Assembly (NCBI GenBank): GCA_017940385.1
Contig: JAGAYS010000055.1
Span: 1 to 33,480 of the forward strand
Source: Ruminobacter sp.
GTDB taxonomy: Bacteria > Pseudomonadota > Gammaproteobacteria > Enterobacterales > Succinivibrionaceae
Reading direction: 5' to 3'
Length of the DNA: 33,480 nt
In this document: one piece after another, positions 1,358 through 31,371 of the stretch
How the letters are laid out: each line of letters starts with the position of its first letter
Numbering within the stretch: the stretch's first letter is position 1
Program-made: the position numbers and the translations under genes
The notes under the pieces: generated by a model
Told to the model about the DNA's origin: nothing
The model's database searches: none
Seen by the model: the letters and a program-made list of their open reading frames with translations, nothing else

Positions 1358-2116
1358 TTAGAATTTGGCGATCATTATCGTCATGTCATCTTCCGAGCCG
1401 TTTCTGAGGGCTTCTTCAATGATTAGTTCCGCCTTTTTCATGGTTGAGATATCGGTGCGGTTCAGTGTGTCTTCAAGAAAATCAGTGTCGGTATACTCAT
1501 GAATGCCGTCACTTGTGATGATAACGGCTTTCTGACTGTCGGTAATGGGGATTGTTCCCGTCTGGATTCTCTTGAGGTTTGAGGCATTCCCCGCACCCAT
1601 GCAGCTGTAGATTTCGTTTTTCGGTGCCTTTTCGGCCGCTTCAATGTTTCCTGTATCAAGAAGCCACTGGTACATGGTCTGGTCGTCGGTTACCCGTCTC
1701 AGGTAAATGCCGTTAAGAATCTGAATGCGGGTGTTTCCGGCGTGTGCGTATATGAGGGAGTTTTCCGTTAGGTGCACAAGGCTTAAGGTTGTTGCCATTG
1801 CGGCGTACCTGCCTTCATCTGCGGTTTCGGCATGCGTAATGAGCTTTGCGTTGATATCCCTGATAATTCCTTCCCATGCTTCGTGGGTCTCGGGAGGTCT
1901 TCGTGATGAAAGCTCATTCAGCACGAATTCGGAAGCCCTGCGTCCGCCCGGCAGCCCGCCGACACCGTCGGCAACGGCAAGCAGTGCGGGAAACGCCGCG
2001 TTCATCTCTGAGCTGTGTTCATGAATTACAACAGGATCCGCACCATTGCCTGCAACCAGGGTACAGTCTTCACAGTGCTCATGATTACCCGTAACTGAAA
2101 TGCAGGTTACTATCAT
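1358..2116 (-). CDS. PP2C-family serine/threonine protein phosphatase
   Basis: A compact stand-alone PP2C domain of 252 residues, with no membrane segment or extra domain. These enzymes use two metal ions to remove phosphate from Ser/Thr residues. Visible metal-site motifs are ED (16-17), VADGVGGLPGG with D50, SDG at 202-204 and EDD near the C-terminus (242-244). The usual GDSR strand motif reads GNTR here (127-130), which some active members tolerate. The start ATG overlaps the stop of the AAA+ gene as ATGA, implying coupled translation; this is the last gene of the five-gene operon. Together with the FHA protein two genes upstream it points to a phospho-signalling module, but no kinase gene is visible in the window. 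Confidence 0.88.
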   Translation of the reverse strand: MIVTCISVTGNHEHCEDCTLVAGNGADPVVIHEHSSEMNAAFPALLAVADGVGGLPGGRRASEFVLNELSSRRPPETHEAWEGIIRDINAKLITHAETADEGRYAAMATTLSLVHLTENSLIYAHAGNTRIQILNGIYLRRVTDDQTMYQWLLDTGNIEAAEKAPKNEIYSCMGAGNASNLKRIQTGTIPITDSQKAVIITSDGIHEYTDTDFLEDTLNRTDISTMKKAELIIEEALRNGSEDDMTIMIAKF

Positions 2117-4023
2117 GAATCAGCCTCCTTCTGCAGGGTACAGTCCAGACTTATACGGTTACTGCTGCAGATGACTCCGTTTACGCGGATTGTTTCATCC
2201 TTGCGTATTCTGTTGTCAAACATGTATCTGGACAACGGATTGATAAGGTATTCCTCAATGATGTTGCCGATGCCTCGACCGCCGTTCTCAAGGTTTCCGG
2301 CAGCCGCTGTTTTAATGGTGCGTACCGCCTCATCACTGAAGGTTATGGTGATGTTCTTTGTTTCGAGCAGTTCGCGCTTAATCTTATTAAGCAGGGAATC
2401 CGTTATTCTGTTTGCGGTTTCCGGTCTGATGAAGTCAAACACCACAATGTTTTCACCGATACGGTTGAGTATTTCCGGTCTGTTGAGTTTGAACTTGAAG
2501 AAGTTTTCTATGGCGGAGATTACCTTGGTCCGTATTACTTCATAGCTTTCATCCGGACTTACGTTCTGTACCCTTTCATGGTTTTCATTCTCAACGTATA
2601 TTCCCAGATTACTGGTGAAGATTATGATGCATTCGGAGAAATACACGGTATTTCCCTGACCGTCCGTCATTCTGCCGTCTTCAAGTATCTGCAGGAATTT
2701 GTCGAGCACGGATGGATGAGCCTTTTCAATTTCATCAAAGAGAAGAATTGAGAAAGGATTGTTTTTCACGGCATTGGTAAGCTGACCGCCTGTCTCATAT
2801 CCCACGTATCCCGGAGGGGCGCCCAGAAGTCTCTGATCACTGTGAGACTGGCTGAATTCGCTCATGTCAAATCTTATGCAGCGGCTCTCATCTCCGAATA
2901 TTTTCTGTGAAAGGGTCTTGGCAGTTTCCGTTTTACCTGTACCGGTAGGTCCGGCAAAGAACAGAACTCCCTTTGGCTTTGTGTGGGATGAGTGCTGCAG
3001 ACCGTTCATGCCGGTAACCGCACGTTTAACCACGTCAAGAGTTCTGGCAATGGCATAATCCTGTCCCTGAACCCTTTTTCTGAATTCATCTTCCGCTTTA
3101 TCGAAGTCTTCGTAATGAAGATTCTCCCACGGATTATCCTTTACGCCGTAACGGTAGAGATCCACGACCCTGTTGAGCTCACTTATGCGGAATTTTCTGT
3201 TTTTGCAGAGAATGCGCAGATCGTTGAGTGTGGTATACGTGATTCCTTCGGTAATGCCGGTGAACTTTTCCTTTATTTTTTTTAGCTCTTCCAGACCTGA
3301 TTCATCCTGATATCTGACGATGTCTGACTGATAGATATCCCTGTCAAAGAAGGATCTGAACTGCGTATCAATGAAATTGAAACGTTCTTCCCTTGTAGGA
3401 GGTGTTATTCTTATGGTCTTGCTGAGGGGATTGTCCAGATAAAACCAGGCAGGGAGGTCATTGACCTTCTGGGTTAGAAGCACCACGGTGTTTCGCAGAT
3501 GGGTTCCGTTTTCGGTAACAACCTCACGGCTGTTCATTACCGCCTTCTGCAGTCTTGTAAAGCTTTCAACGTCTTCAGGCTGTATCTGATTCGGAGCCAC
3601 AATGTATCTGGAGGCAAAGTCCATGATGACAGCAGTCGGCTCAGCCTGCTGACCCAGTGCCAAATCGATGTACTGAGTGGCTCTGGCGCCTCTGCCGCTG
3701 AAGAGGGCGGGAATTCTGCCGTTTTCAGCATCGGCACTGACAAGTTCGGCAAATTCACTGACAGCGTTAGGATTGTCGGTAGCACAGTCATTATAGAATC
3801 CCGTGATGTGGTCGTAGAAAACCACGTGTCTGTATCCCAGATTCTTAAAGAATGCGTAAAGATAGTCACGGAGGTTTACGATGGCACCCTTATCCTGATA
3901 GTCATTGTCCTCAGGATATACGTACCTGTCCATTATGTTGCCTTCAATGATTATCTGAGGCTTGATTCTGTTAAAGATACTGAGTTCATTATGCCACCTG
4001 GGCAGTTTTTCAAGATTGTCCAT
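2113..4023 (-). CDS. Hsp100/ClpB-like AAA+ ATPase with degenerate first AAA domain
   Basis: 636 residues from the chosen ATG. The C-terminal half is a full Hsp100 second AAA+ domain: Walker A GPTGTGKT (about 358-365), pore-loop PPGYVGYE, Walker B LLFDEIE (about 427-433), sensor 1 TSN, then a C-terminal small domain. The N-terminal about 230 residues look like an AAA domain that has lost its Walker A; a strand AVIMDFAS sits where a Walker B would be, followed by a sensor-like LLTQKVNDLP. The intact pore tyrosine suggests real threading or remodelling of protein substrates. There is no ClpP-binding IGF/L loop that I can recognise. I chose the ATG at 4023 because AGGA motifs precede it and overlap with the radical-SAM gene falls to 14 bases; an ATG at 4086 would give 657 residues and a 77-base overlap. 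ClpV of type VI secretion is unlikely because no secretion genes are present. Confidence 0.85.
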   Translation of the reverse strand: MDNLEKLPRWHNELSIFNRIKPQIIIEGNIMDRYVYPEDNDYQDKGAIVNLRDYLYAFFKNLGYRHVVFYDHITGFYNDCATDNPNAVSEFAELVSADAENGRIPALFSGRGARATQYIDLALGQQAEPTAVIMDFASRYIVAPNQIQPEDVESFTRLQKAVMNSREVVTENGTHLRNTVVLLTQKVNDLPAWFYLDNPLSKTIRITPPTREERFNFIDTQFRSFFDRDIYQSDIVRYQDESGLEELKKIKEKFTGITEGITYTTLNDLRILCKNRKFRISELNRVVDLYRYGVKDNPWENLHYEDFDKAEDEFRKRVQGQDYAIARTLDVVKRAVTGMNGLQHSSHTKPKGVLFFAGPTGTGKTETAKTLSQKIFGDESRCIRFDMSEFSQSHSDQRLLGAPPGYVGYETGGQLTNAVKNNPFSILLFDEIEKAHPSVLDKFLQILEDGRMTDGQGNTVYFSECIIIFTSNLGIYVENENHERVQNVSPDESYEVIRTKVISAIENFFKFKLNRPEILNRIGENIVVFDFIRPETANRITDSLLNKIKRELLETKNITITFSDEAVRTIKTAAAGNLENGGRGIGNIIEEYLINPLSRYMFDNRIRKDETIRVNGVICSSNRISLDCTLQKEADS

Positions 4024-4633
4024 TGTCCTGTCCTGTAAGTCCCTTTTCCAAAAGACGTTTTTTAAGCTCCGTTTCATAGTCGGCACCGTGGATGCCTACA
4101 GATATGAAGCCGTTTCCGGTTCTGAAATTCTGAACCTGATTATGTCCTTCCCTAATGTATTTGAGATACCGTTCCCGGTGTCTGTCCTGAAGAATGCTGA
4201 TTCTCTGATTGTCTGAGCCCCTGAGAAAGCAGTTACGGTTGCGTTCACGTATGTACCTGCCGTCGATGAGCACGGTGACGTAACTCAGGATGTCAGCGTT
4301 CTCTCTCCTGAAATCCTCATCATATTCAAATCCCGTATAGACAAGTATATCGTCGGAAATGTCCGCAAGATGCGGGAGCAGTTCCCGAAGAGCCTCCTGC
4401 TGCTGGAAGGGTTCGCCTCCCGTCAGCGTAAAACCGTCAATTTTCCCGGTCCGGGCCACGCTCTTAATCATTTTCATGATCGTGTCACAGCCCGTTTCGT
4501 ATTCAGGCTTTTTCTTCCACAGTTCGGGATTGCTGCAGCCGTGACAGCCGTGTGTGCAGCCGGCGAACCAGATGCCCATACGGTTTCCGGGGCCCAGAAC
4601 CTTTACGGGATAAAGAAGTCTGGCGACATTCAT
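4010..4633 (-). CDS. Small radical-SAM protein, NrdG-like activase fold
   Basis: 207 residues. The CxxxCxxC cluster motif is C26/C30/C33 in FAGCTHGCHGCSN and the SAM-binding GGEP motif is at 72-75. The N-terminal about 160 residues resemble the activase of anaerobic ribonucleotide reductase (NrdG), which makes a glycyl radical on a partner. No NrdD-like glycyl radical enzyme is in the window, and the gene sits inside a signalling/chaperone operon, so the NrdG role is doubtful. The C-terminal tail (about 160-207) is extra compared with a minimal activase. The start overlaps the FHA gene stop by four bases and the end overlaps the AAA+ gene. The substrate is unknown; plausible inferences are a radical-based modification of a locus protein or of a small metabolite. 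Confidence 0.82.
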   Translation of the reverse strand: MNVARLLYPVKVLGPGNRMGIWFAGCTHGCHGCSNPELWKKKPEYETGCDTIMKMIKSVARTGKIDGFTLTGGEPFQQQEALRELLPHLADISDDILVYTGFEYDEDFRRENADILSYVTVLIDGRYIRERNRNCFLRGSDNQRISILQDRHRERYLKYIREGHNQVQNFRTGNGFISVGIHGADYETELKKRLLEKGLTGQDNGQS

Positions 4634-5427
4634 CGGTCATACTCTACGGTAAATGAACCGGCACCATCGGTGTTCCAGCAACCTCCCAGTGAAACCCTGT
4701 CACCGGATTCCAGAAGACGCTGTCGGCCTGCCTCGATCCTTCCGTCGTTAACCATGGTGCCGTTGGAACTGTCAAGATCCCTTATCGCAATACGGCTGCC
4801 GACTACGGTAATCTCCGCATGTCTGCGGCTGGTATAATGGCAGTTTCTGAGATAACCTGAAAGTGTATGCTCGCGGCCAATCACCAGTGTCGGGGTGTCG
4901 TCAGTGATTTCAAGGATTGTCCGGTCTTCGGCGTCCTTAAGTCTGGCCACATGTTTAGGTGTATTCAGCTGAGCCCCGGCCTCACGGTTCTGTGTCCTTC
5001 CGTCGGAAACCGTGTTTGTCAGAGCTTCTTTCGGCAGAAATTCTGGCTTTACGGTTTTAATTGCTTCCTTACAGTGTACGCATATTCTGGCGACACCTCT
5101 GTTGCGGTGCCCGCATTTCGGACATATTTTTACGTACTCCATGCCGTCATCCGATGCCGCGGAGCCGTTATCAGAAGAGGTGTTCCCGATGGCGGCAGCT
5201 GATGAAGCCGGGGTCTCCGGTACTTCATTACCGTCTGCCTGAGTCTCAGAAGCCGGGAACTTTTCGTTTTCTGCTTCAGGTATTCTGTGACTTTCGGTGT
5301 CACCTGTGACAGATTCCTGTCTTACGGTTGATTTAACGTCCATGATGTCACAGCCACATTCTGAGCATTCTGCAGCCGAAGTAGGGTTTTCCGTATGACA
5401 GTGGGGACATATTTTTACTTTTGCCAT
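4630..5427 (-). CDS. Double zinc-ribbon protein with C-terminal FHA domain
   Basis: 265 residues, soluble. An N-terminal zinc ribbon (C7, C10, C21, C24), a low-complexity Ser/Glu/Ala linker (about 32-95), a second zinc ribbon in ICPKCGHRNRGVARICVHC (101-119), and an FHA domain from about 175. The FHA signature residues are all present: GRE (184-186), SRRHAE (200-205) and SSNGT (220-224). FHA domains bind phosphothreonine peptides, so this is the likely reader of the signal erased by the PP2C enzyme. It starts 42 bases after the coiled-coil gene, with only a weak ribosome binding site, and its stop overlaps the radical-SAM start, so it belongs to the same operon. Its binding partner cannot be told from sequence. 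Confidence 0.85.
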   Translation of the reverse strand: MAKVKICPHCHTENPTSAAECSECGCDIMDVKSTVRQESVTGDTESHRIPEAENEKFPASETQADGNEVPETPASSAAAIGNTSSDNGSAASDDGMEYVKICPKCGHRNRGVARICVHCKEAIKTVKPEFLPKEALTNTVSDGRTQNREAGAQLNTPKHVARLKDAEDRTILEITDDTPTLVIGREHTLSGYLRNCHYTSRRHAEITVVGSRIAIRDLDSSNGTMVNDGRIEAGRQRLLESGDRVSLGGCWNTDGAGSFTVEYDR

Positions 5428-5469
5428 TTTTTCACGCCGTTGATACGTTATTCGTAATTATTTTGCAGG

Positions 5470-7182
5470 TTATTTGTCAATGGTAAGATGCTTCTTTTCC
5501 TCCTGCGACGCAGTGTGGCGGCCGGAGGTCATTATTTCTTCCATTGTACGTTCATCGATATCGTAGTCAGTGAGGTTAAGAATCTGACTGTATTCTGCGG
5601 ATGGAGGAAGTTCATGTCCCTCGAGCAGTTCAATGCCGCGGGCCTTGAGTTTTTCCTTTATCATGCGATAGTCACTGCAGAAGTTTTTCATGTCCTCTTC
5701 GAGCATCATGGCTTCTCTTTCGTCAGGTTCTCTGTCAGTGGTGTCAAGTCCGCCGAGTTCCATACATACGTTATTGTCTTCATCAATTGTTACGCCAATT
5801 GCGGTATTGTCGGCAAAACGGTACAGGGCTCTGTGATCTGCTCCGGAATAGTCGGATTTGCCGTAACCGAGAACCTCATGTCCCATTTCCTGCATGATTT
5901 CGTCAATGCTCTTTCTGATGTAGAGTTCCTGCTCACGCAAATCGATAGCCTCCCTGAGGTCAGCAATGGCTGAATCCATGTGAACGAGACTTGATTCGGT
6001 GAGTGCGAATCTGGCAGGAACGGCTCCTAACTGCTGACACAGAGTTTCATAGGTAAGGAGTCTGTCGTTATATTCATTAAGAAGACTGTTCCATTCTGCA
6101 ATATCGACACTGATTTTTTTGATTTTTGGTTCAATGCTTATTGAGAAGAAGCTTCTGAGATAATCCGGATCACCTGCGTGAGTCTCAGAGGCCTCAGCCC
6201 ACAGCTCCTGCAGATTATTCAGCTTTTCCGCCTGTTTTTCCGGAACGTTACGTGAGGAGACAGTCTCTGCGAACTTTCGTCTGGCGGTATCATAAAGCTT
6301 CTGAAGTTCAGCGGTTTTTTCCGCACGCTTTTTCTCGGTTTCTGCAGCTTTTCTTGCTGCTTCTGCCCGTACCTTCTCCTGTTCTTCTTCCTCACGTTCC
6401 CTGATTTTCTGCAGCAGGGTGGAAATATCATCAGACAGTCTGCTTACGTAATTCGATACTATGAGCTCCCTGGTTTCCGCACAGGAAAGGGAAAAAGTGG
6501 AGACGGTTGCTCTGACAGCCTGAAGTCCGTCAACTGCTTGTCTGAGTTCGTTCTCGTTATCGCCTGCGGCTCCGGCTTTGGAAAGCAGTTCGCTGAACTC
6601 CGAACTGCTCTTTTCATGCTTCTTGTGCAGACCTGTATATGCTTCCGGGTATTTGATGTCACACTGACTGATTTTTTCCTGAAGCATGTGCAGCTGTGTT
6701 TCATTTTCACGCAGCATGCTGCCGATTTCCTCGCTGAGACTGGAAACGGTCTGTTTCAGTTCGTTAAGCCTGCGGAGCTTTTCTCGGTATTCTCTGTCAA
6801 GGCGTTCTTTTTCCTCACTGATTTCCGCCAGAATACGGTAATGTTTTTCTTTAAGTGACCTGAATGAGTCATATGCGCGCATAACTTCAGTATCGTCCGC
6901 AGTCATTTTCAGATGCAGACTTTCGATGTCATTTCTGATGGCGCAGATTCTTTCACTGACATCTTTTTCCGTAAGTACGGTAAATGAGCCGGAGCGTTCA
7001 GCATTTTTCCGTAACTCGGCCATTATTTTACTGACGGAAGGGGAATTCTGCAGAAAGTCATTGCGTTTTCTGCCGAACTCAATGATTCTTCTTTCACGCA
7101 AAAGCTCCAGTTCGCGTCTTCTGCGCATTTCCTCAATCTGTTCTGCGGTTAGCTGTACACGCCTTGTTTTTGGACCGCTCAT
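5470..7182 (-). CDS. Coiled-coil protein, first gene of the signalling operon
   Basis: 570 residues, no signal peptide or membrane segment. It opens with MSGPKTRRVQLTAEQIEEM followed by an Arg/Glu-rich helix. Most of residues 60-400 is predicted by eye to be coiled coil (long Glu/Lys/Arg/Leu heptads, including an RAEAARKAAETEKKRAEK stretch). A globular C-terminal part (about 430-540) carries GYGKSDYSG, AIGVTIDEDNNVCMELGG and DREPDEREAM. I chose the ATG at 7182 because GAGG lies six bases upstream; an in-frame ATG at 7230 lacks a binding site. I recall MSGPK...LTxEQ starts in other uncharacterised bacterial coiled-coil proteins, but could not verify it here. A scaffold or substrate for the downstream Hsp100 and FHA proteins is a reasonable guess, no more. 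Confidence 0.75.
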   Translation of the reverse strand: MSGPKTRRVQLTAEQIEEMRRRRELELLRERRIIEFGRKRNDFLQNSPSVSKIMAELRKNAERSGSFTVLTEKDVSERICAIRNDIESLHLKMTADDTEVMRAYDSFRSLKEKHYRILAEISEEKERLDREYREKLRRLNELKQTVSSLSEEIGSMLRENETQLHMLQEKISQCDIKYPEAYTGLHKKHEKSSSEFSELLSKAGAAGDNENELRQAVDGLQAVRATVSTFSLSCAETRELIVSNYVSRLSDDISTLLQKIREREEEEQEKVRAEAARKAAETEKKRAEKTAELQKLYDTARRKFAETVSSRNVPEKQAEKLNNLQELWAEASETHAGDPDYLRSFFSISIEPKIKKISVDIAEWNSLLNEYNDRLLTYETLCQQLGAVPARFALTESSLVHMDSAIADLREAIDLREQELYIRKSIDEIMQEMGHEVLGYGKSDYSGADHRALYRFADNTAIGVTIDEDNNVCMELGGLDTTDREPDEREAMMLEEDMKNFCSDYRMIKEKLKARGIELLEGHELPPSAEYSQILNLTDYDIDERTMEEIMTSGRHTASQEEKKHLTIDK

Positions 7183-7725
7183 TGTAACCTCGGTGAGTTT
7201 TTGTTTAAATTTTCCTGTGCAGGTAAACAATGTTTTAAAAGATAATGTTTACCATAAGACAGAGGTATTTTATGTGGTAAATGTCCTTATATCAATCAGA
7301 AGCCGCCTATTTGCCGCCAAATACTTACGGAATCTGAATGAAACCGACATTTTTAAACTGTCTGCCACCGATTTTCGGTTTGCCTGAATTGGCGTTTAAC
7401 GTCCCCCGGAGATGCTCTGTCTCAACTGATTATGCTTAGGTCAAATAAAGTTTCCGGCATGAGAAAAGTCGGTTTTGTAAAACGTTATGAAGCATGAGAC
7501 CATACTTGTTTAAAAAAATTACAGTCTTTGTAAATTATGGAAAAGAAAATGTTAAATAAGTGTAAATAAAAGATTAAAAACTCGCCAAACAGTTCAAAAA
7601 AACATGATCGTGTCGTCTTAAAATGACAGTTTTACTCACTTGTCGTTTATTATCTGAAAAATTCTGATAAATTAGATACTGAATTAATTCGTATTTCCGT
7701 CTGAAAGCTCGTATCTGTCGCAGTT

Positions 7726-11263: not shown

Positions 11264-12547
11264 ATGAATCGTAAATCTTCCAAAAAAAATACCGTTTTTC
11301 ATCAGATGTTCTGGCTCCCGCTGGTACGATTCTGGATGTTCTCCCTGTCTGTTTTCAGATATATTTACGATAATCAGGTGATAAGAACCATTATATCTAC
11401 GGTTGTTACACTGCTTGCGAGTGTTATCCTCGCATCGGCATTTTTCGTAAGCTATTACGTGTTCCTCTTTTTTATTCTCCTTATTCCGATTTCCATCGTG
11501 CTTGCTCATCTGTATATGATTATGACATACGGTGTTGAGGGCACAAGGGCTGAACTGAGGCAGATAAAAGAAGATTTTCAGGACAGAATGTGGCGATACG
11601 AAAATCAGATCTACGGAGATAATCGTGAAACCAGGTATCTGAATCTGGTATATGAAAACGAACCTGATAATCTCAGCTACAGAATAGCAGGATATATGGT
11701 GGGTCTCGGAGGAGGTGTGGATTCAGACTGTATCAGGCAGCTGAACAGCATCGTTGCCAGCGGTAACAAAAGTAAGTCTGCCATCTACGTGCAACGTTTT
11801 TATGAAGGTCTCGGCAATAATTATAACCTGCAGAATGACATCAACATGTATGTCATGAAGACCTCTGAGGATCATGAACAGAGACTTAAGTTCATAGACA
11901 TGCTTGTTGCCCTCAGTTTTATCGATAACAATATTCAGGTTGATAAGTTCAAATTCATCAGGGAAATGAGTGAAAGGGTTGAAGTTAATGATAAGGAACT
12001 GAACCGTATTCTGAATACAAGGACCAACGGTCGGTACGGAGTACGTTACGGCATTAACGACATGACCCAGGAAGAAAAGAAAAAGGCTGATTACGAGCTT
12101 GAGTACGGCACCGTGGAAACCTTTGCTCTGACACTCATGGGATATGTGGCATCTGCAGATCGTAATGTCACCAATGAGGAATACGATCTGTTTATCACCA
12201 TGATTGAGGATATGCAGAAAAAGATAGCCCAGGACAAGGAGGATGAATACGTTAAACGCTTCCACAGAGGAACTTCTCCTAAATATAATCCTCGCCAGGA
12301 CATTCAGCTGTTTCGTAAAAAATATGGAAATCAGCTGATTAAATACCGGGAGCTGCTTTCTTTACTGATTAAGATGGCGTATGCAGACGGAGACGTAAGT
12401 CGGGCTGAATATGACAGAATTCTCAGAATAGCGGAACTTCTGGAGCTGAATGAGTCTGCCGTTCAGAGCATACTTTATGATCAGACCGGCGGCAGGTTTG
12501 GGCGGAAGCCTCAGAAGAAGCAGTTCTCTGCGGATTTTTACAGTTAA
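11264..12547 (+). CDS. Membrane protein with tandem TerB/DjlA-like domains (first paralogue)
   Basis: 427 residues. A basic N-terminus, two adjacent membrane segments (about 38-90), a helical linker, then two TerB-like helical bundles. The second is the clearer: LMGYVASADRNVTNEEYD, then FHRGTSPKYNPRQDI, then LIKMAYADGDVSRAEYD, which is the pattern of the N-terminal domain of DjlA and of TerB proteins, with paired acidic residues able to bind metal. The first (about 128-250) is more divergent. It ends in a short GGRFGRK tail. TerB-domain proteins belong to the tellurite/stress-response network and are thought to act at the membrane with Ca or other metals. No J domain is present, so it is not DjlA itself. 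It has its own promoter region and terminator. Confidence 0.8.
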   Translation: MNRKSSKKNTVFHQMFWLPLVRFWMFSLSVFRYIYDNQVIRTIISTVVTLLASVILASAFFVSYYVFLFFILLIPISIVLAHLYMIMTYGVEGTRAELRQIKEDFQDRMWRYENQIYGDNRETRYLNLVYENEPDNLSYRIAGYMVGLGGGVDSDCIRQLNSIVASGNKSKSAIYVQRFYEGLGNNYNLQNDINMYVMKTSEDHEQRLKFIDMLVALSFIDNNIQVDKFKFIREMSERVEVNDKELNRILNTRTNGRYGVRYGINDMTQEEKKKADYELEYGTVETFALTLMGYVASADRNVTNEEYDLFITMIEDMQKKIAQDKEDEYVKRFHRGTSPKYNPRQDIQLFRKKYGNQLIKYRELLSLLIKMAYADGDVSRAEYDRILRIAELLELNESAVQSILYDQTGGRFGRKPQKKQFSADFYS

Positions 12548-12602
12548 AGTGTCGTTGAAATCCTGCGGAAAGGCGTCATGGTTTGTCGGTAAGACATAAT
12601 AG

Positions 12603-12644
12603 AATAACGGGGCGGAAACATGAATTTTCGTCCCGTTATTTTTC
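12603..12644 (+). terminator. Strong terminator after the first TerB-like gene
   Basis: AATAACGGG-GCGGAAA pairs with TTTTCG-CCCGTTATT, followed by TTTTC. It separates the two TerB-like genes into different transcription units. Confidence 0.85.
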
Positions 12645-13068
12645 AATATGAGCCGGAGACCGACAGCCTCGTGTCCGGTTAACTGAAAACTCTGAAATAT
12701 TCCCTGACAGTCGGGTTTTTATGAAATGTGGCGTAATTTTAACCGTAGATGTAAACAGGCAATAAACACAATGTTAAACAACGGTTATAAAATTGTATTA
12801 AATGTGATTAATTTTTAGGATTGATCCGTTCTTAAATTGATTATTTGCCAATATAAAGTAAAATAATATTAATGTCATTTGAGTTTTCCCGGATGTTAAA
12901 GACGGAAGGGCGGCCGGAAGAAAAGCTTAATAAGAACAAAAATATAAATATAAGCATAAAACAGATAAACACAGACTCAATAATAAAGGTAAATCGGCTG
13001 AAAAATACTCCATGGGGCAGAGCGTGTGTGACAGGGATAAATAATTTTTTTATTGTGGGATTGTCCTT
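12645..13068. other. AT-rich spacer before the second TerB-like gene
   Basis: About 420 bases. CCGG pairs flank a short loop near 12653-12680; the rest is AT-rich and probably holds the promoter of the next gene. A short open frame starting at 12872 runs into that gene in another frame and looks spurious. Confidence 0.4.
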
Positions 13069-14556
13069 ATGTCAAACAAAACTCGTCATACCTCTGAGAC
13101 TTCTACGGAAGTTCCGTTTTATGATGACACACACATACACCATACTGCTAAGACACTGGTGATAAGCAGTGTTGTTTATAATCTTTACCTTCTTTTTGTG
13201 CCGGCCTGTCTGTGTTTCCTGCTTGTGCTTCCTTTTATAATTCTGTGGTATTCCGGAATATTTGAGGATACGGTTTATTTTTTTGACAGGGAAGGAGCCA
13301 TAATCCCAGTTCTGCTCTGGGTCCTCATTGTTCTTCTGGTTGTCGTATATTTTTTTGTATTCCTTAACAGAAGAAATAATCTTTACATAATTCTCGGGGT
13401 GATAAACATGGGGAAGGCTCTGTGCACCATTCCAATTCACGTTTGCTGCTATCTTGGCTCTCTGTGGAATAAGGAAAAATGCCGTAAGTTCATTATTGGT
13501 GTCATGCCACCGGGAGTTAAGGACATTTCAGTTATTGGTATTGTCCGGGCATTTATCAGTGCAAACTCTCTGCAGAAAAGCGAGAGCCAGGTGTTCTCGG
13601 CATATGCCAAAGTCAGACAGACTGAAGAAAAGGAGCTTGCGGCACACGTGGCCGAGCTCTACGGATATGCTTCATTTCTGAACGGTGGAAGTCCTCTCTG
13701 CAAAAAGGCGTTTCTTCACGGTGTAAGACCTCTTGATGCCTCAGGAATCAAGGTTCTTACGGCTTGTTTTAACAACGGTATAAGTGATTCCGTAGACGCG
13801 GATGATCTTCTGAAAAAGATAGGCACTCTTGTTCCTGATGAACTTTTCAGGCGCAGGGATCTTCTGAATACTCTTGTTATCATAGTCTATGCCACTCAGA
13901 GCATCAATGATAAGACCCTGGATCTTATCGAACGTTTCGGAGAGGTTCTCAGTCTTCCTAAGGAAGATATTAATTATGCGTTAAAGTATTATGCCGGCGG
14001 CAGGTATCAGGTTTCTGTCAGGAAAAAGTCAAAATCCGGAATCAGACAGGACAGGAGAGCTGAAGGAAATGCCGCGGCCGATAATCTGTTTTCGGACATG
14101 AAATCAGAAAGTGTCAGAAAATACATCAATCGAGAGGCTGATCTTCTGCTGATGTCGCTTCTCGGCTATATTATTGGCAGTTTTGGGGAGCTTGATGAGG
14201 AAAAACATGAGCTGCTTATGAGAATGCTTGATTCTGTAGGTATGCCTGCAGATGAGCAGTACATAAAAGCTTTTGAAGCCGGTGCTTCAGTAAAGTATGC
14301 GCCTTATGAGGATATTGAAAAGTTCAGGGAAAAGTATCAGGAGGAAGATCCTGACGAGATAAAGCTTCTGCTGCTGAAACTTATCCGCATGATGCATGTC
14401 GACGGAGACATATCCGAGAGGGAGCGTCTTATCTTTTCCCAGATAGGACTTGGGTTCGGATTCCATGATGCTCAGACCCGAAGCATGATTGCCAAGGAAA
14501 AGAACCGTATTGATGCCATTGAGGCAGGTCAACGCCTGAGCGACAGTGAGTCATAA
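13069..14556 (+). CDS. Membrane protein with tandem TerB/DjlA-like domains (second paralogue)
   Basis: 495 residues. Hydrophobic segments at about 30-60 and 78-100, perhaps a third at 105-128, then two TerB-like bundles. The first (about 195-330) ends in YYAGGRYQV, matching the NGRYG/GGRFG endings of the 11264 protein. The second has LLGYIIGSFGELDEEKHE, FEAGASVKYAPYEDIEKFREKYQ and LIRMMHVDGDISERER, closely matching the second bundle of the first paralogue, including the xKYxPxxDIxxFRxKY centre. The two proteins are therefore paralogues by duplication that have since diverged, mostly in the membrane part. The ribosome binding site is weak (GGGA nine bases before ATG). An envelope stress or sensing function fits the family, but the ligand is unknown. 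Confidence 0.8.
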   Translation: MSNKTRHTSETSTEVPFYDDTHIHHTAKTLVISSVVYNLYLLFVPACLCFLLVLPFIILWYSGIFEDTVYFFDREGAIIPVLLWVLIVLLVVVYFFVFLNRRNNLYIILGVINMGKALCTIPIHVCCYLGSLWNKEKCRKFIIGVMPPGVKDISVIGIVRAFISANSLQKSESQVFSAYAKVRQTEEKELAAHVAELYGYASFLNGGSPLCKKAFLHGVRPLDASGIKVLTACFNNGISDSVDADDLLKKIGTLVPDELFRRRDLLNTLVIIVYATQSINDKTLDLIERFGEVLSLPKEDINYALKYYAGGRYQVSVRKKSKSGIRQDRRAEGNAAADNLFSDMKSESVRKYINREADLLLMSLLGYIIGSFGELDEEKHELLMRMLDSVGMPADEQYIKAFEAGASVKYAPYEDIEKFREKYQEEDPDEIKLLLLKLIRMMHVDGDISERERLIFSQIGLGFGFHDAQTRSMIAKEKNRIDAIEAGQRLSDSES

Positions 14557-15764: not shown

Positions 15765-15854
15765 TTATTTATCTCTTCCCGTAGAGATCCGTTTTATTAT
15801 GTCGGAGAATTCTGCAACTGTTACTTCTTTTTCGATTCCGGTCTTATCCGTCAT
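15765..15854 (-). CDS. Possible micropeptide of 29 residues downstream of the paired peptides
   Basis: Starts 17 bases after the stop of the 26-residue peptide gene. It begins MTDKTGIEKEVTVAEF and ends IIKRISTGRDK. The binding site is weak. It is not similar to the paired peptides. Position and direction suggest co-transcription, but coding status rests only on that. Confidence 0.3.
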   Translation of the reverse strand: MTDKTGIEKEVTVAEFSDIIKRISTGRDK

Positions 15855-15871: not shown

Positions 15872-15952
15872 TTACTTAACGTAGCTGAAGTGGTATTCGC
15901 GGGTTACCGGTGCAATAGACTGGTAATCTGACTTCTTGATGAAATACTTCAT
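15872..15952 (-). CDS. Micropeptide A (26 residues), paralogue of micropeptide B
   Basis: An ATG with CAGGGA nine bases upstream. It begins MKYFIKK and ends APVTREYHFSYVK. It aligns without gaps to the gene at 16084-16173, with 17 of 26 residues identical. Nine of the conserved codons differ only by a synonymous base (for example TTC/TTT, CCG/CCT, CGC/CGT, AGC/AGT), which is strong evidence that the protein, not the DNA, is under selection. It is basic, with no cysteine, signal peptide or membrane segment. Possible roles are a precursor of a modified peptide, a signalling peptide or a small regulator; none is shown. No modifying enzyme is adjacent. Confidence 0.75.
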   Translation of the reverse strand: MKYFIKKSDYQSIAPVTREYHFSYVK

Positions 15953-16083
15953 GTTAAATTTCCCTGTTAAATAAAAATGCTTAAAAATTATGTTTTGAGT
16001 AGTTTAAATTTTTGAGCAAACTGAATTAAAAGAATTGTGTGGATTATTTAATTTCAGTCTTTAATTTATAAAAAAGTAGCTGA

Positions 16084-16173
16084 TTAGAAATTCTGCTTAA
16101 CGTAACTGAAGTTATAATCACGAGTTACAGGAGCCAGACCTGCGTTGTTTGCTTTCTTTATAAAATATCTCAT
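16084..16173 (-). CDS. Micropeptide B (29 residues), paralogue of micropeptide A
   Basis: An ATG with AAGGA nine bases upstream. It begins MRYFIKK, has ANNAGL in the variable middle and ends APVTRDYNFSYVKQNF, three residues longer than micropeptide A. The ends are conserved and the middle (residues 8-13) varies, a pattern seen in peptide families with fixed recognition ends. It is transcribed first, about 130 bases upstream of A, and is preceded by a perfect hairpin (16212-16242) and three more palindromes. I recognise no described family. Confidence 0.75.
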   Translation of the reverse strand: MRYFIKKANNAGLAPVTRDYNFSYVKQNF

Positions 16174-16211: not shown

Positions 16212-16242
16212 AACGTGAACTGTAGTATTCCCTGTTCACGTT
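16212..16242 (-). promoter_or_regulatory. Perfect inverted repeat in the leader of micropeptide B
   Basis: AACGTGAAC and GTTCACGTT flank a 13-base spacer, 39 bases before the ATG of micropeptide B on the minus strand. It could be an operator or an RNA leader hairpin. Confidence 0.55.
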
Positions 16243-16304
16243 GCACATGATAGTTAGACTCATTTTTTTATACAAGTCTTTTTTAAAAAAAAACTAAAAA
16301 AATT

Positions 16305-16445
16305 ACATGAAAATATTTTCATGTTATTGAAAACGTTGTCAGAGGTGTGGTAAACACTAAAAATAAGCAACAAAATATGTCTAGATATATGGTTGTAAAC
16401 AAAAAATTTTGTTTAACATTCGTTTAACATGTAATTAAATTACAT
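16305..16445. promoter_or_regulatory. Cluster of three perfect palindromes upstream of the micropeptides
   Basis: ACATGAAAATATTTTCATGT (16305-16324, all 20 bases symmetric), AAACAAAA-AA-TTTTGTTT (16397-16414) and ATGTAATT-A-AATTACAT (16429-16445). GTTTAACAT also occurs twice in tandem 11 bases apart (16411, 16422). The positions suit operators for the minus-strand micropeptide transcript. High AT content makes chance symmetry easier, so only the cluster as a whole is notable. Confidence 0.45.
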
Positions 16446-16907: not shown

Positions 16908-18578
16908 TTATTCCGCGGACTGCGTTGCCAGAAGTTCTCTGGCATTTGCAAGAGCTGATTCAGATATTACGGGACCTCCCAGAAGTCTGGCTATTTCCTT
17001 TTCCCTGCCGTCGGCATCCAGTTCAGTTATGGATGTCACCGTTTCATTATCAATATCTTTTTTAAGAACCTCATACTGATTATGTGCGGAGGCCGCCACC
17101 TGTGGCAGGTGGGTTACGGTAATAACCTGAGATGTTTTTGCCAGTCTGCGCAGCAGTCTGCCGGTATTTGCGGCAGTAAAACCGCTGATGCCCGTGTCAA
17201 TTTCATCGAATATAAGAGTAGGAGCCGATATTCTGTTGGCGGTAAGAACGAGTATTGCAAGGGCAATGCGGCTGATTTCACCGCCGGATGCGGTCTTGGA
17301 TATAAGATCCGGAGTCATGCCGGCATTGGCATTAAACTTAAAACATACACTGTCTATGCCGTTGTGATGCGGCGGAACTTCGGTAAATTCAATTTCAAAC
17401 ATGGCATTAGGCATGGAAAGTTCATGGAGCATGTCGGTTATCCGTTTTGCAAATTCCACGGACATTTCCTTTCTTCTGCGCCTGAGTTCCTCGGCTTTTT
17501 CCATAAAGGCCTTTTTGGCGGCCATTACGTCGGCGGTTCTTGCTTCAATTTCGTCTTTTATTGAGGAAAATTCCCTGGTTTTGTTCTGAAGTTCATTCAG
17601 AACTTCGTGCAGTTTATCTGGAGTGACGGCATATTTATGAGACATGTCGTTGTACAGTGCCATTCTTTCATTAATGAAGTTTAGTCTTTCCGGATCCGAT
17701 TCGAGAGTCGAACTGTAGCGGCTGATCTCACCTGCTGCATCCTCCAGCTGTATTCTGGCACTTTCAATACTCTGAAGTATTGGAGTCAGACTCTTATCTA
17801 TTTTTACAAGAGAGTTTATTCCTCCCAGAAGTGCGTTTACGGATGTCAGAATACCTCCGTCATCGTCGGTAAGCTGACCGTGTACGTTTATGCTGTTCTG
17901 CAGTAGGGTCTGTACGTTGCTGAGTCTGTCGTATTCTTCCGAAAGTTCCTCAAATTCGTGCTCCTTTGGGGCAAGTCTGTTCAGTTCCGCAATCTGGTAG
18001 AGGGTTAGTTTGTACTCCGCAACCATATCCTTCTGGAGATTCCCGAGTCTTGTTACTTCGTCTTTTCCCCTGGAATATGTGTAGAATAAAGATTCCACTT
18101 CACTTAAGAGATTTCCCAGACCGGCAAAGGCGTCAAGATACTCAATCTGGTGTTCGCTTTTTAAAAGAAGCTGACCGTCATGCTGACCGTGAATGTTGAG
18201 AAGTCTTGATGAAAGTTCTCTCAGAACAGTGGTGTTTACGCTTCTGTCATTTACGAATGCCCTTGAACGGCCGTCCTTTGAGACTGTTCTTCTTACGATG
18301 CACAGTTCGTTGTCATCGGAGAGGAGATCGTAATCCCTGAGCAGCCCGAGAGCTCTGGGTGAATCAGACAGATCAAAGGTTGCACATATGCTTGTGGCGC
18401 CGGAACCGCTGCGCACCGACTTTGAGTCGGCTCTGCCTCCCATTACCAGTTCCAGGGCATCCACGGATATTGATTTACCTGCACCGGTTTCACCGGTGAT
18501 GGCACTCATTCCCTTGTGAAGGTTTAACGTCGCTTTCTTCACGACGGCGTAGTTTTCAATTGTTAGGGATTCAAGCAT
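16908..18578 (-). CDS. recN: DNA repair protein RecN
   Basis: 556 residues, normal for the family. An SMC-like ATPase: N-terminal MLESLTIENYAVVKK, Walker A GETGAGKS (about 29-36), MGGRADSKSVRSG, a central coiled coil, then the signature TASGGEISRIALA, Walker B TLIFDEIDTGISG and the TVTHLPQVAASA histidine switch. RecN acts early in recombinational repair of double-strand breaks, holding DNA ends and sisters together. AAGGAG lies five bases before the start. It follows nadK on the same strand, a gene order seen widely in Gammaproteobacteria. I found no LexA-type box in the short upstream region. Confidence 0.97.
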   Translation of the reverse strand: MLESLTIENYAVVKKATLNLHKGMSAITGETGAGKSISVDALELVMGGRADSKSVRSGSGATSICATFDLSDSPRALGLLRDYDLLSDDNELCIVRRTVSKDGRSRAFVNDRSVNTTVLRELSSRLLNIHGQHDGQLLLKSEHQIEYLDAFAGLGNLLSEVESLFYTYSRGKDEVTRLGNLQKDMVAEYKLTLYQIAELNRLAPKEHEFEELSEEYDRLSNVQTLLQNSINVHGQLTDDDGGILTSVNALLGGINSLVKIDKSLTPILQSIESARIQLEDAAGEISRYSSTLESDPERLNFINERMALYNDMSHKYAVTPDKLHEVLNELQNKTREFSSIKDEIEARTADVMAAKKAFMEKAEELRRRRKEMSVEFAKRITDMLHELSMPNAMFEIEFTEVPPHHNGIDSVCFKFNANAGMTPDLISKTASGGEISRIALAILVLTANRISAPTLIFDEIDTGISGFTAANTGRLLRRLAKTSQVITVTHLPQVAASAHNQYEVLKKDIDNETVTSITELDADGREKEIARLLGGPVISESALANARELLATQSAE

Positions 18579-23999: not shown

Positions 24000-24089
24000 C
24001 TTTTTCTAAGTTCAGAGTGGAAATTTTATTGTAGTAAGGGCAAGCCTACAATTTAAAGTCTCATGTCATCTAAGTATAGAGAGAAATAT

Positions 24090-26027
24090 ATGTACGTATC
24101 AAAAGTAAAATTTGAAAACTATGGTCCTTTGGAGGAAGTAAATCTTGAGATAAAAAACGTTTCAGAAGGAAATCCAAAACCGACTGTTCTTATCGGACAA
24201 AATGGTACTGGTAAGACTTTATTTTTATCCAACATTTTACACGCTATCATCGAAATGAAGCGTAAAAAATACAGTACATTATTAGAGGTATCAGAGAATA
24301 ATTATTATAGAGTTGGATCATTGAATTATATTAGAGCGGGTACACTAACAGCTTATAATCGTATAGAATTTACAGATCAGGCGTCTTTCACAGAAGTGAT
24401 GACAAAGAATTATAAAAATTTAAAAGATAGTTATTCTGCAAAGGATTATCCGGGAGTAAATATTGAGGATAATAAGCTGAAGGAGACGGGTTTTTTTAGT
24501 TCTGCGATTGCCCCGCAGGACAATCTCTTTGATAAAGAGGTTTTCTTGTTCTTTCCTGTTGAGAGATATTATACTCCGACCTGGATAAATAAAAGCAATG
24601 AGAATCTTAGTTACGCATCAGACGAGCATGGATTTGTCGGAAAAAGTTCTTCAAATATGGTTAAGTACAATGTGTTATCCAATATCGAGGAATGGTTATT
24701 AGATGTAATCATCGACAAAGTACTTTATGATGAGAAGTTGTTCATTCCTGATGGAAAAGGAGGAACTCAGCTCGTATACTCAGGGCCTAACAATAGTATT
24801 CAGGCCACAATTAATTTATTCCTGACAATACTATATAAACATAAAGGATATGATAGTGCTAGGATCGCAGTAACAAAAAGATTAGGTCTTTGCAGGCAGA
24901 TAGCGATCATTGGAAAACGGGGAGAAGAAGAACATGAAATAATGCCTACAATGGCAAATATGTCTTCTGGTGAGGCAATGCTCCTAGGAATGATGGCTTC
25001 GATACTTAGGGAAGCAGATCGAGTAGGTGTTGGAAATTTTGCCATTAATGGCATTAATGGCATTAAGGGTATTGTACTTATAGATGAAATCGATGCGCAT
25101 ATGCACTCAGACTTTATCCAGGAAGCATTGCCAGAGCTAATTCACTTTTTTTCAGGCATACAATTTATTGTTTCCAGTTATTCTCCATTTTTCTTGCTTG
25201 GAATGAAAGATAAATTTGAAGATAATTGTAATTTTATTGAAATGCCGTTTGGTAAAAACATACATAACTTAATAAATTTTAATGAAATTAGAAACTGCTT
25301 TGATGTTGTCAACAAAACATATACCGGTTTCATCAAAGAGTATGAAAACATCACCGATGAAATGCGAAAGATAAAACAGCCGCTTATTATCACGGAGGGA
25401 AAAACGGATTGGAAACATCTTAAGCACGCCTTGAATGTTTTTCACAGTAAGGGACTCTTCAAGACGGTAAATGTAAAATTCTTTGAAGGTGAAGAGGCAA
25501 TGGGAGCTGATAAACTAGATGCATTGTTGTCTAAACTTGCTATGATTGATCAAACAGCTCCGATCATTGGAGTATTCGATAACGACTGTAAAGTTGGGAA
25601 GAAATATATAAAGCCTACTCCATTGGGGAATAATGTTTATGCATGTAGTATAACTGATACACAAGGCTATGGTGAGGAAATTTCCATTGAATTATTATAT
25701 TCTAGGGAGGATTTGACTAAGGAATGGCCGGATAAAAGACGTTTATACTTAACAGATGAGTTTTCTGAAAAATCTCATCAGTTGAAAACAGACACGTCTG
25801 TAGTATCTCAAAATAAAACAATAGATGATGCAATAAAAAGAAAAATTATCAAAGTCGTAGACTCGAATGTATACAACGATAAAGAAAAAGAACTGGCTGT
25901 TTCAAAGGAAGAATTTGCAAGGCAAATATATGAGGGCAAACCACCGTATGAAAACATAAATGTAGACGGATTTAAAAAAATTTTTAAAACTATAGAAGGA
26001 ATTCTCGATAAACAAAATAATAACTAG
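24090..26027 (+). CDS. OLD-like ATPase-TOPRIM nuclease (predicted phage defence)
   Basis: 645 residues from the chosen ATG. N-terminal ABC-type ATPase: MYVSKVKFENYGPLEE, Walker A GQNGTGKT, signature MSSGEAMLLG, Walker B GIVLIDEIDAHMH, then FIVSSYSPFF, where the family usually has a switch His (TxHSP) and this protein has Tyr. C-terminal TOPRIM domain: LIITEGKTDWKHL (metal-binding Glu) and GVFDND (DxD), followed by GEEISIELLY, as in OLD-family proteins and GajA of Gabija. Such proteins cut DNA in an ATP-controlled way and act against phages. No GajB helicase or retron is next to it, so a stand-alone OLD-type system is most likely. The start at 24090 has AGAGAGA upstream and matches family starts; an ATG at 24063 has no binding site. 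Confidence 0.82.
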   Translation: MYVSKVKFENYGPLEEVNLEIKNVSEGNPKPTVLIGQNGTGKTLFLSNILHAIIEMKRKKYSTLLEVSENNYYRVGSLNYIRAGTLTAYNRIEFTDQASFTEVMTKNYKNLKDSYSAKDYPGVNIEDNKLKETGFFSSAIAPQDNLFDKEVFLFFPVERYYTPTWINKSNENLSYASDEHGFVGKSSSNMVKYNVLSNIEEWLLDVIIDKVLYDEKLFIPDGKGGTQLVYSGPNNSIQATINLFLTILYKHKGYDSARIAVTKRLGLCRQIAIIGKRGEEEHEIMPTMANMSSGEAMLLGMMASILREADRVGVGNFAINGINGIKGIVLIDEIDAHMHSDFIQEALPELIHFFSGIQFIVSSYSPFFLLGMKDKFEDNCNFIEMPFGKNIHNLINFNEIRNCFDVVNKTYTGFIKEYENITDEMRKIKQPLIITEGKTDWKHLKHALNVFHSKGLFKTVNVKFFEGEEAMGADKLDALLSKLAMIDQTAPIIGVFDNDCKVGKKYIKPTPLGNNVYACSITDTQGYGEEISIELLYSREDLTKEWPDKRRLYLTDEFSEKSHQLKTDTSVVSQNKTIDDAIKRKIIKVVDSNVYNDKEKELAVSKEEFARQIYEGKPPYENINVDGFKKIFKTIEGILDKQNNN

Positions 26028-27524: not shown

Positions 27525-27547
27525 ATCCAAATAAAATGGAGGAAACT

Positions 27548-28591
27548 ATGAAAAAAGGGGATGTTCTAGATTTAATAAAATATCATTTTCAAAATAGAGA
27601 AAAAGAATTTAAGGATAAAACTATTACGATTGCGCGTGAATTTGATAAAACAGGAGATTCACAACTAGCTCAATATGTTATGGGAATTCTTTCTCAAGCA
27701 AATACCTTTTTTCCTCAATCTGAAGATGCTGCATCTTCCCTTATCCCTGTAAAGTTAGATACAGATCCTTTGCCGTTGCCTGAACCTATAATGAATGACT
27801 TGAAAGGTATTATTAATGCAGTAAATCATGGTATTGGTGTTAATAAATTTTTGTTTATTGGTTCACCAGGAACTGGTAAAACAGAAAGTTCAAAACATAT
27901 AGCACGATTGTTGGGACGTCGATTGCTTCAAGTGGATTTTAGTAATCTTGTGGATAGTAAACTTGGCCAAACAGCTAAAAATTTAACAAGTTTATTTAGT
28001 GAAATTAATGGATTGCCGTTCCCTAACAAGAATATTATTTTATTTGATGAAATTGATACTATAGCGTTGGATCGAATTAATCAGAATGATGTCAGAGAAA
28101 TGGGAAGAGTTACTTCGACTTTTCTCAAATCGTTAGATGCAGTAGCTTCTGAAATAGTAATTATTGCTACAACTAATTTGTTCGCAAATTTAGATAAAGC
28201 TCTAGTTAGGAGATTTGATGCAACAATAGATTTTGATAGATATACAGTTACTGACAAAATTGACGTAGCAGAGGTTATTTTAAATAATTATGTTCGTCAG
28301 TTCAAAAATGTTGCACGTGATCTTCGCTTATTTAAAAAAATATTAAAAAACGCAAAACATGTACCTAACCCTGGAGAACTAAAAAATATTATTAGAACAT
28401 CATTAGCTTTTAGTGATGAAAAGGATCCCTATGATTATCTGAAACGTTTTTTTTCCGCTATGTTTGGCAGAAAGCTTCCTACATTAAAGGAACTTCATTC
28501 GTTAGGATTTACCGTAAGGGAAATTGAAATATTAACTGGAATTTCAAAAAGTAGTGTATCGAGAGGATTGAACGGAGGAGAGTATGAATAA
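27548..28591 (+). CDS. ietA: IetA-like AAA ATPase of a IetAS defence pair
   Basis: 347 residues. A helical N-terminal part (1-85), then an AAA+ domain: Walker A GSPGTGKTE (about 109-117), Walker B NIILFDEIDT (about 163-172), sensor 1 IIATTN and arginine-finger region VRRFDATIDFDRYT. The last about 30 residues, FTVREIEILTGISKSSVSRGL, look like a helix-turn-helix and may bind the repeats upstream. The gene overlaps the subtilase gene by eight bases, so the two proteins are made together. An ATPase followed directly by a subtilase is the hallmark of ietA-ietS, first described in plasmid maintenance and later as phage defence. The start at 27548 has GGAGG at the right distance; the ATG at 27536 overlaps that site. 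Confidence 0.8.
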   Translation: MKKGDVLDLIKYHFQNREKEFKDKTITIAREFDKTGDSQLAQYVMGILSQANTFFPQSEDAASSLIPVKLDTDPLPLPEPIMNDLKGIINAVNHGIGVNKFLFIGSPGTGKTESSKHIARLLGRRLLQVDFSNLVDSKLGQTAKNLTSLFSEINGLPFPNKNIILFDEIDTIALDRINQNDVREMGRVTSTFLKSLDAVASEIVIIATTNLFANLDKALVRRFDATIDFDRYTVTDKIDVAEVILNNYVRQFKNVARDLRLFKKILKNAKHVPNPGELKNIIRTSLAFSDEKDPYDYLKRFFSAMFGRKLPTLKELHSLGFTVREIEILTGISKSSVSRGLNGGEYE

Positions 28592-30969: not shown

Positions 30970-31371
30970 ATGACGCAAGTGGATCTTAAATTCATAGACC
31001 TTTTTGCTGGTATAGGTGGATTTAGACTCGGTTTTGAAAATGCTGGTTGTAAATGTGTGTTTAGCTCGGAAATCGATGAACATGCTTGTAGAATGTATGA
31101 ATTGAATTTTGGCAATAATCCCTATTGCGATATCACTAAATTAGACCCTGCCATCATTCCTGATTTTGATATTCTATGTGCAGGTTTTCCGTGCCAAGCA
31201 TTATATTCCTTACGATTTAGATTTTCCGGGAAAAATTCAAAATGTAAATGTAAAAAATCATTCTTGGGTATCCTCAACGATGTAGAAGTGAACAATGTTG
31301 ATCCCAATATATATTTAATAGCAATGCTTGCGTACAGCATAAAACGCAAAAAGGATAAGACTGTATTTTAG
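30970..31371 (+). pseudogene. Truncated cytosine-5 DNA methyltransferase fused to an endonuclease fragment
   Basis: A good start, then DLFAGIGGFRLGFENAG (motif I, SAM binding), SSEIDEHACRMYE (motif II), DILCAGFPCQA (motif IV with the catalytic Cys). After the PCQA the family sequence stops: no ENV motif, no QRR motif, no target-recognition region. The frame goes on as LYSLRFRFSG and then NIYLIAMLAYSIKRKK, which continues, after a one-base shift at a T run, into the endonuclease remnant. An internal deletion has therefore joined the two genes. It cannot methylate DNA. Confidence 0.8.

Follow-up and report, generated by a model that had tools for sequence, protein, structure and literature searches.

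Tandem micropeptide genes of Ruminobacter and its relatives: a family under protein-level selection with likely CRP control of most arrays

Background

The window analysed in this work, a 33,480-nucleotide contig of Ruminobacter sp. (JAGAYS010000055.1), carries on its minus strand, downstream of recN, two very short homologous reading frames. They raise the question of whether such small genes are translated and selected, how they are controlled and on what their products may act. In an earlier note, made from the letters of the window, they had been described as a pair of micropeptide genes with conserved ends and a variable centre, a pattern for which no described family was known.

Few bacterial micropeptides have known control and a testable target. 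The precedent considered here is VcdP of Vibrio cholerae, described in PMC8672173 as a CRP-repressed small protein of 29 residues, which binds and activates citrate synthase GltA, the activation being abolished by alanine replacement of residues 15–18. VcdP is the small protein of a dual-function RNA, VcdRP, and shares this RNA with a base-pairing seed; the CRP site lies upstream of the −35 box (PMC8672173). The same article presents SgrT, the small protein of SgrS RNA, which inhibits the PtsG transporter and is activated by SgrR (PMC8672173).

Results and discussion

The two micropeptide genes of the window and their relatives

Gene 1, the first in transcription (16084..16173, minus strand), encodes a peptide of 29 aa, MRYFIKKANNAGLAPVTRDYNFSYVKQNF, and gene 2 (15872..15952, minus strand) one of 26 aa, MKYFIKKSDYQSIAPVTREYHFSYVK. 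The gene recN (16908..18578, minus strand) is their upstream neighbour on the same strand. The reported frames of 26 and 29 codons are present at these positions, and the good ribosome binding sites ascribed to them are of AGGA/AGGGA type, 8–9 nt 5′ of the ATG in both genes. Gapless alignment of the first 26 codons gave the same 17 of 26 identical residues as had been claimed, nine of them differing at the third base only and eight having the same codon. A further 29-codon frame located downstream (15765-15854) was considered as a third gene and dropped, since by eye it is not kept in locus L011.

Gene 1 has intact counterparts in loci L011 and L012 and in the named records L063 and L081, while the peptide of gene 2 is identical in the nearest relative, G003. 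The two-gene array with both frames intact stands beside recN in three of the four genus genomes searched (G000, G002 and G003) and is absent from the fourth, G001. The earlier note had named lack of homologues, or frameshifts in close relatives, as evidence against its reading; homologues were found, and in close relatives the frames are free of frameshifts.

With the 26-residue peptide as a query, eight further places were recovered in the own genome, so that the resemblance of the two genes goes beyond a chance pair. Five of these places (E 4e-8 to 5e-7) form one tandem array on contig 35, with a spacing of about 130 bases. Contig 45 holds two copies, the last of which was weak with the single query (E 0.23) and reached E 3e-9 with an alignment including its own type. 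The own genome has nine copies in three places (2 + 5 + 2). The notion of a pair is therefore right as far as two homologous genes are concerned, but what they belong to is a multi-copy, often tandem family present in several genera.

Distribution of the family

A profile search of 56 Succinivibrionaceae genomes gave matches in 19 at E≤0.5, including 13 at E≤1e-4 and one (G013) at 0.0025; the remaining five, with E from 0.07 to 0.4, are probably due to chance. When 295 genomes of the order were searched with the Succinivibrionaceae-only profile, 24 matched at E≤0.01. Seven of these belong to Succinivibrionaceae, 14 to genus g47 (best E 5e-6) and one to family f20 (2.5e-4), the remaining two being G034 and G272. 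The last two are probable chance matches, and that of G034 contains two internal stops; further weak matches were noticed in G121, G153, G146, G159, G185 and G037. A profile that included g47 and f20 sequences found 21 g47 genomes (E 3e-13 to 6e-9) and five f20 genomes (E 7e-10 to 0.003), which are counted as matches and not as a rate. Genus g47 was recognised as Aeromonas by a 94.9% match in Aeromonas caviae NZ_AP026896.1, where no feature is annotated at this place, the feature table of the record being very sparse (18 features).

In a class-wide sample only one of 369 genomes, the own one, matched at E≤0.001, and the family looks restricted to this order on the basis of that sample, which includes no known Aeromonas or f20 genome. 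Scanning contigs of named genomes for the DNA of the motif returned 27 stretches, mostly of Succinivibrionaceae, among them Ruminobacter amylophilus DSM 1361, uncultured Ruminobacter and Succinimonas amylolytica DSM 2873. One stretch is labelled Bacteroidales, and two SAR86 stretches, presumed to be due to chance, were excluded from the subsequent counts. Weak matches in two-chromosome Vibrio-like genomes (f21, model positions 15-24) were likewise rejected as chance, because in each of the five to six read the match is antisense to a gamma-glutamylcyclotransferase-like gene.

Five peptides were compared with the curated or clustered models of Pfam, NCBIfam and PHROGs at E≤10, and none of these models covers the family; the sole match was to PF20881 of Pfam, at 16.5 bits, below the cut-off of 27. 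No paper on the family came up in a search of the open literature, and an unnamed cluster may exist in small-protein catalogues, e.g. PMC11364881. Within these libraries and the literature searched, the statement that no such family has been described holds.

Peptide anatomy and selection

The peptides are polar and basic, range from about 26 to 43 residues and carry near the C-terminus the core P-x-T-[RK]-x-Y-x-F-x-[YW]. Among 27 diverse members P15, T17, Y20 and F22 are invariant and Y24 is nearly so (numbering of the 26-residue peptide). Many N-termini combine basic and aromatic residues (MKRLF, MRYF, MFKKFF). Genus g5 and the contig-45 type have a second, divergent peptide after the first, with cores such as KPYTKKYFFEY and PPFTKAYNFSYVK. 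By inspection, no hydrophobic membrane segment is visible in the aligned sequences, and no signal peptide is visible in the family peptides.

For 25 unique sequences of the MxY type, pN/pS was 0.12 in codons 1-7 (a value biased somewhat downward, because MxY types were selected), 0.71 in codons 8-13 and 0.08 in codons 14-26 (biased downward, because the copies were collected by that motif). The low values in both end segments bear out the protein-level selection suspected from the pair alone, and the conclusion that selection acts on the peptides is well supported by these codon comparisons. As to the fixed ends around a variable centre, selection is indeed strong at the ends and weak centrally, but the N-terminal M-K/R-YF proved to be a feature of the genus.

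The third core codon specifies valine in 60 and alanine in two of 62 unique sequences, with A as the silent third base in 59. This near-fixed silent base makes a second constraint, on DNA or RNA, possible.

Each array consists of one to six copies, and several arrays may occur in one genome; for the contig-35 type, four genomes of the genus gave copy numbers of 5, 5, 6 and 6. Similarity within the array exceeds that to the best matches in other genomes in G001 (0.88 vs 0.84–0.86) and slightly in G002 (0.933 vs 0.92–0.93 at best for two genomes), and no such excess was seen for G000 and G003; the copies may still be undergoing duplication or gene conversion. The arrays are tandem DNA repeats, and this property, the closer likeness of the G001 copies to each other and the one nearly fixed silent position would also suit a repeated non-coding element in which the frames arose by chance. 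To that explanation we give almost no credence. It is already disfavoured by the codon pattern, with pN/pS of 0.08–0.12 in the end segments, while the frame is kept across genera at 23–65% identity and both frames are intact in the three recN-linked arrays.

Neighbourhood of the arrays

In the loci inspected, the different types of array share no neighbour gene, and no maturation enzyme or transporter recurs near the arrays, as judged by sequence starts of the ORFs within about 3 kb. One array adjoins a pflA-like gene, and the other arrays have no such neighbour. On the 3′ side, the first large frame beyond the window array is on the other strand and ends at 14556. Since there is no common neighbour and the downstream frame is in the opposite orientation, action in trans is to be expected of the peptides. 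A role as leader peptides, with ribosome stalling as the means of controlling a gene in cis, would agree with the conservation of the C-terminal motif at a nearly fixed distance from the stop codon; we regard this role as highly improbable, given the opposite-strand frame after the window array, the unrelated genes that other arrays precede and the tandem copies, which are not expected of a leader.

Tandem copies, and a conserved motif combined with a variable stretch, resemble the arrays of precursors from which a modified or exported signalling peptide (a RiPP or pheromone) is made. Such an origin is very unlikely here: beside the arrays examined no maturation enzyme or transporter recurs, no signal peptide is visible and the conserved part is the C-terminal one. 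The lack of a recurring modification enzyme and of a hydrophobic segment, taken with the CRP-like boxes described below, favours a regulator under sugar control over the precursor of a modified peptide.

Ldr and Ibs of E. coli are tandem type I toxin arrays, and they share with the present genes the arrangement of paralogous micropeptide genes in intergenic regions. They are, however, hydrophobic membrane toxins with antisense RNAs, whereas the family peptides are polar and basic.

At one Aeromonas-like locus (L087 of G234) integrase-like genes, recognised by sequence starts, lie beside the peptide gene at 4181-7001 in its orientation, which suggests that a mobile element was inserted there.

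Several other features of the window were recorded. An AAA ATPase gene followed by a subtilase gene (27536-30830, plus strand) matches the PADLOC models of IetA (2e-38) and IetS (2e-64) and is a candidate IetAS anti-phage system. Another AAA ATPase (24063-26027, plus strand), parts of which match PADLOC models of PtuA and RT-Toprim, is perhaps an OLD-like defence ATPase. The C5 cytosine methylase frame at 30970-31371 (plus strand, 133 aa) covers only the first 73 of 324 model positions and is, as read against the model, truncated or interrupted. A group II intron match (Rfam, 46.9 bits) is situated near the contig end (312-377, plus strand), and two adjacent TerB-domain proteins are encoded downstream of a large membrane protein (11264-14556, plus strand). 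ClpB-like AAA and radical SAM proteins, with others that are PP2C-like and FHA-like by appearance, occupy 1358-7230 on the minus strand, a block that may form one signalling module.

CRP-like boxes and promoters

A CRP-like box, defined by at least 8 of 10 consensus positions within 130 nt and with three copies at contig ends set aside, precedes 27 of the 32 first copies in Succinivibrionaceae arrays vs 317 of 3200 dinucleotide shuffles, although these are not 27 independent events because the first copies are related by descent. None of the 41 later copies has such a box (shuffles, 154 of 4100), which suggests that an array is one transcription unit. By pattern match, a CRP-type box is also present at all 21 Aeromonas-like and all five f20 genes, starting 37-73 nt 5′ of the start codon used.

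Fifteen of the 27 boxes fall in the 17-bp promoter spacer (13 assigned by script, L002 and L015 by reading, the script having taken a tied second site) and 12 directly after the −10; all five f20 boxes are within the spacer. The predicted promoter pattern itself is loose and was applied without a shuffle control; 30 of the 32 first copies have it, and a test of four Aeromonas-like genes gave no match. Boxes placed within the spacer or just past the −10 would be expected to block RNA polymerase and usually to repress. Judging by these sites, control of most arrays by CRP is likely, and the own genome encodes a CRP orthologue (380.8 bits vs a cut-off of 266).

The five first copies devoid of a box are that of the window, its counterparts in L011 and L012, and those of L014 and L036. 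The predicted sigma-70 type promoter of the window array, TTGTAT-17-TATCAT (16247..16275, minus strand; a loose pattern match), has its first hexamer beginning 102 nt 5′ of the ATG at 16173. Its hexamers are similar to those of other arrays and the 17-bp spacing is identical, but the spacer has no CRP-like box, which makes CRP-independent expression of the recN-linked array probable. In the predicted 5′ leader, the inverted repeat AACGTGAAC-N13-GTTCACGTT (16212..16242, minus strand) is a putative hairpin or operator; it comprises 9 bp with AGGGA in the loop, and a 6-bp version is kept in L012. Across the family, a leader hairpin with a GGA loop, a candidate of CsrA type, was noticed at 10 of 32 first copies (vs 155 of 3200 shuffles) and at six of 41 later copies, and several array leaders keep the hairpin without GGA. 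In Vibrionaceae leaders such a hairpin occurs in 32 of 35, against a high 1028 of 3500 shuffles.

Pattern search revealed the palindrome TGAAAATATTTTCA upstream of the window array (16308..16321). Exact matches to TGAAARTATTTTCA exist at two places in the 2.45 Mb genome, upstream of the window array and of the contig-35 array (G000:C35:74173-74186); the location of these matches is more notable than their number, because the reversed control pattern has one hit per strand. With one mismatch allowed, the relaxed pattern gave 8 forward and 13 reverse hits vs 7 + 7 for the reversed control, and one such site lies upstream of the contig-45 array, sites of this kind being not much commoner than the control (21 vs 14). 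The relaxed hits are near unrelated genes and two genes that appear to be concerned with carbohydrates. At L124, L125 and L126 another palindrome stands directly 5′ of the CRP-overlapped promoter of the f20 peptide gene, which we take to be a HexR-like motif of the TGTAATTAAATTACA type; similar sequences also occur 5′ of VcdP-like frames in Vibrionaceae.

Comparison with VcdP and the choice of a candidate target

The VcdP locus of Vibrionaceae was located via pepD, and of 121 genomes, 94 gave a VcdP-like frame at E≤1, though a good number of the matches are weak. These frames have T17, F20 and Y22 invariant, with the same spacing as T17, Y20 and F22 of the family; T-x-x-aromatic-x-aromatic, with T at residue 17, is nevertheless a short pattern which can appear by chance. 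Further points of likeness are the VcdP length of 29 residues, the CRP site at the promoter in most of the family and the pepD neighbour, which adjoins the VcdP-like frames as well as the peptide gene in 12 of 21 Aeromonas-like genomes (locus L096 is not long enough for a decision). The differences are that the Aeromonas peptide gene is on the other side of pepD and the window array is beside recN, that the family boxes are in the spacer or after the −10 and not upstream of the −35, and that the family forms tandem arrays, that of the window having no CRP-like box. Homology was not found by three tests: the comparison of VcdP with the family profile (hhalign) was not significant, ungapped permutation gave p of 0.46 and 0.38, and the VcdP-like frames ranked 95th or worse among 4010 segments scored with the family HMM. 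For this reason the family may work like VcdP but is not filed as VcdP.

The same loci bear on whether the peptides belong to dual-function RNAs like VcdRP, with a base-pairing RNA sharing the transcript in part of the family. The 11-mer CCCCAATTGAT stands after the ORF and before a terminator-like hairpin in three of five f20 loci, and 3′ of the VcdP-like frame in two Vibrionaceae genomes (G149 and G403) among 45 loci examined; together with the common pepD neighbourhood it provides leads, not proof. It is missing, though, from the other two f20 loci and the other Vibrionaceae loci, no CCCC-type base-pairing seed was seen after the Succinivibrionaceae arrays read, the Aeromonas gene is on the opposite side of pepD, and nine loci gave no Rfam family above cut-off. 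As codon-level selection shows in addition that the peptide itself matters, we hold an RNA of this kind to be improbable.

Turning to the target, the citrate synthase family PF00285 is present in 52 of 56 Succinivibrionaceae genomes (at the family level, any oligomer type). Being nearly universal, also in genomes with no detectable peptides, it gains no support as a target from presence and absence. Sugar-controlled micropeptides could also be directed at something else, e.g. a sugar transporter or a phosphotransferase component, and the CRP-like boxes are evidence for this version too, as is the precedent of SgrT as a PtsG inhibitor described in PMC8672173. SgrT, which was set beside the family by description only, is likewise a small protein under sugar-metabolism control, though SgrR-activated and inhibiting PtsG. 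As neither a hydrophobic segment nor likeness to a named family was seen, we consider such another target rather unlikely.

The reading that we prefer, with slightly less than even confidence, is that these are sugar-controlled micropeptides, arrayed as operons, which act in trans on a protein of central metabolism as CRP-repressed VcdP does on citrate synthase. The array would be transcribed as one unit from a promoter repressed by cAMP-CRP, so that peptides would accumulate when a preferred sugar is abundant, and tandem copies would raise the peptide dose. The C-terminal motif would then bind a protein of central carbon metabolism in trans and change its activity in a VcdP-like manner, GltA being the first candidate. 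This action on a carbon enzyme is proposed on the strength of the VcdP precedent and the shared spacing of T17 and the aromatic residues.

Conclusions

As a kind, the family resembles known metabolic micropeptides; as far as our searches reach, tandem arrays behind a CRP-overlapped promoter, with the box missing in one array, are new. It is conceivable, if doubtful, that we are dealing with an order-restricted class of micropeptides that serve as dose-tunable regulators of central carbon enzymes, in which a promoter responsive to sugar would drive polycistronic arrays of almost identical peptides, the dose being set by gain and loss of tandem copies and by escape from CRP, as in the window. 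Were this true, VcdP would either have diverged far from the rest of the class or have arrived at the same logic independently. The regulatory signature of the family is clear, and named hosts are available in culture (Ruminobacter amylophilus DSM 1361, Succinimonas amylolytica DSM 2873 and Aeromonas). Should citrate synthase or some other enzyme of carbon metabolism prove to be tuned by the peptides, the mechanism known from Vibrio would be extended, and rumen fermenters would have in the number of tandem copies a direct evolutionary means of adjusting metabolic control.
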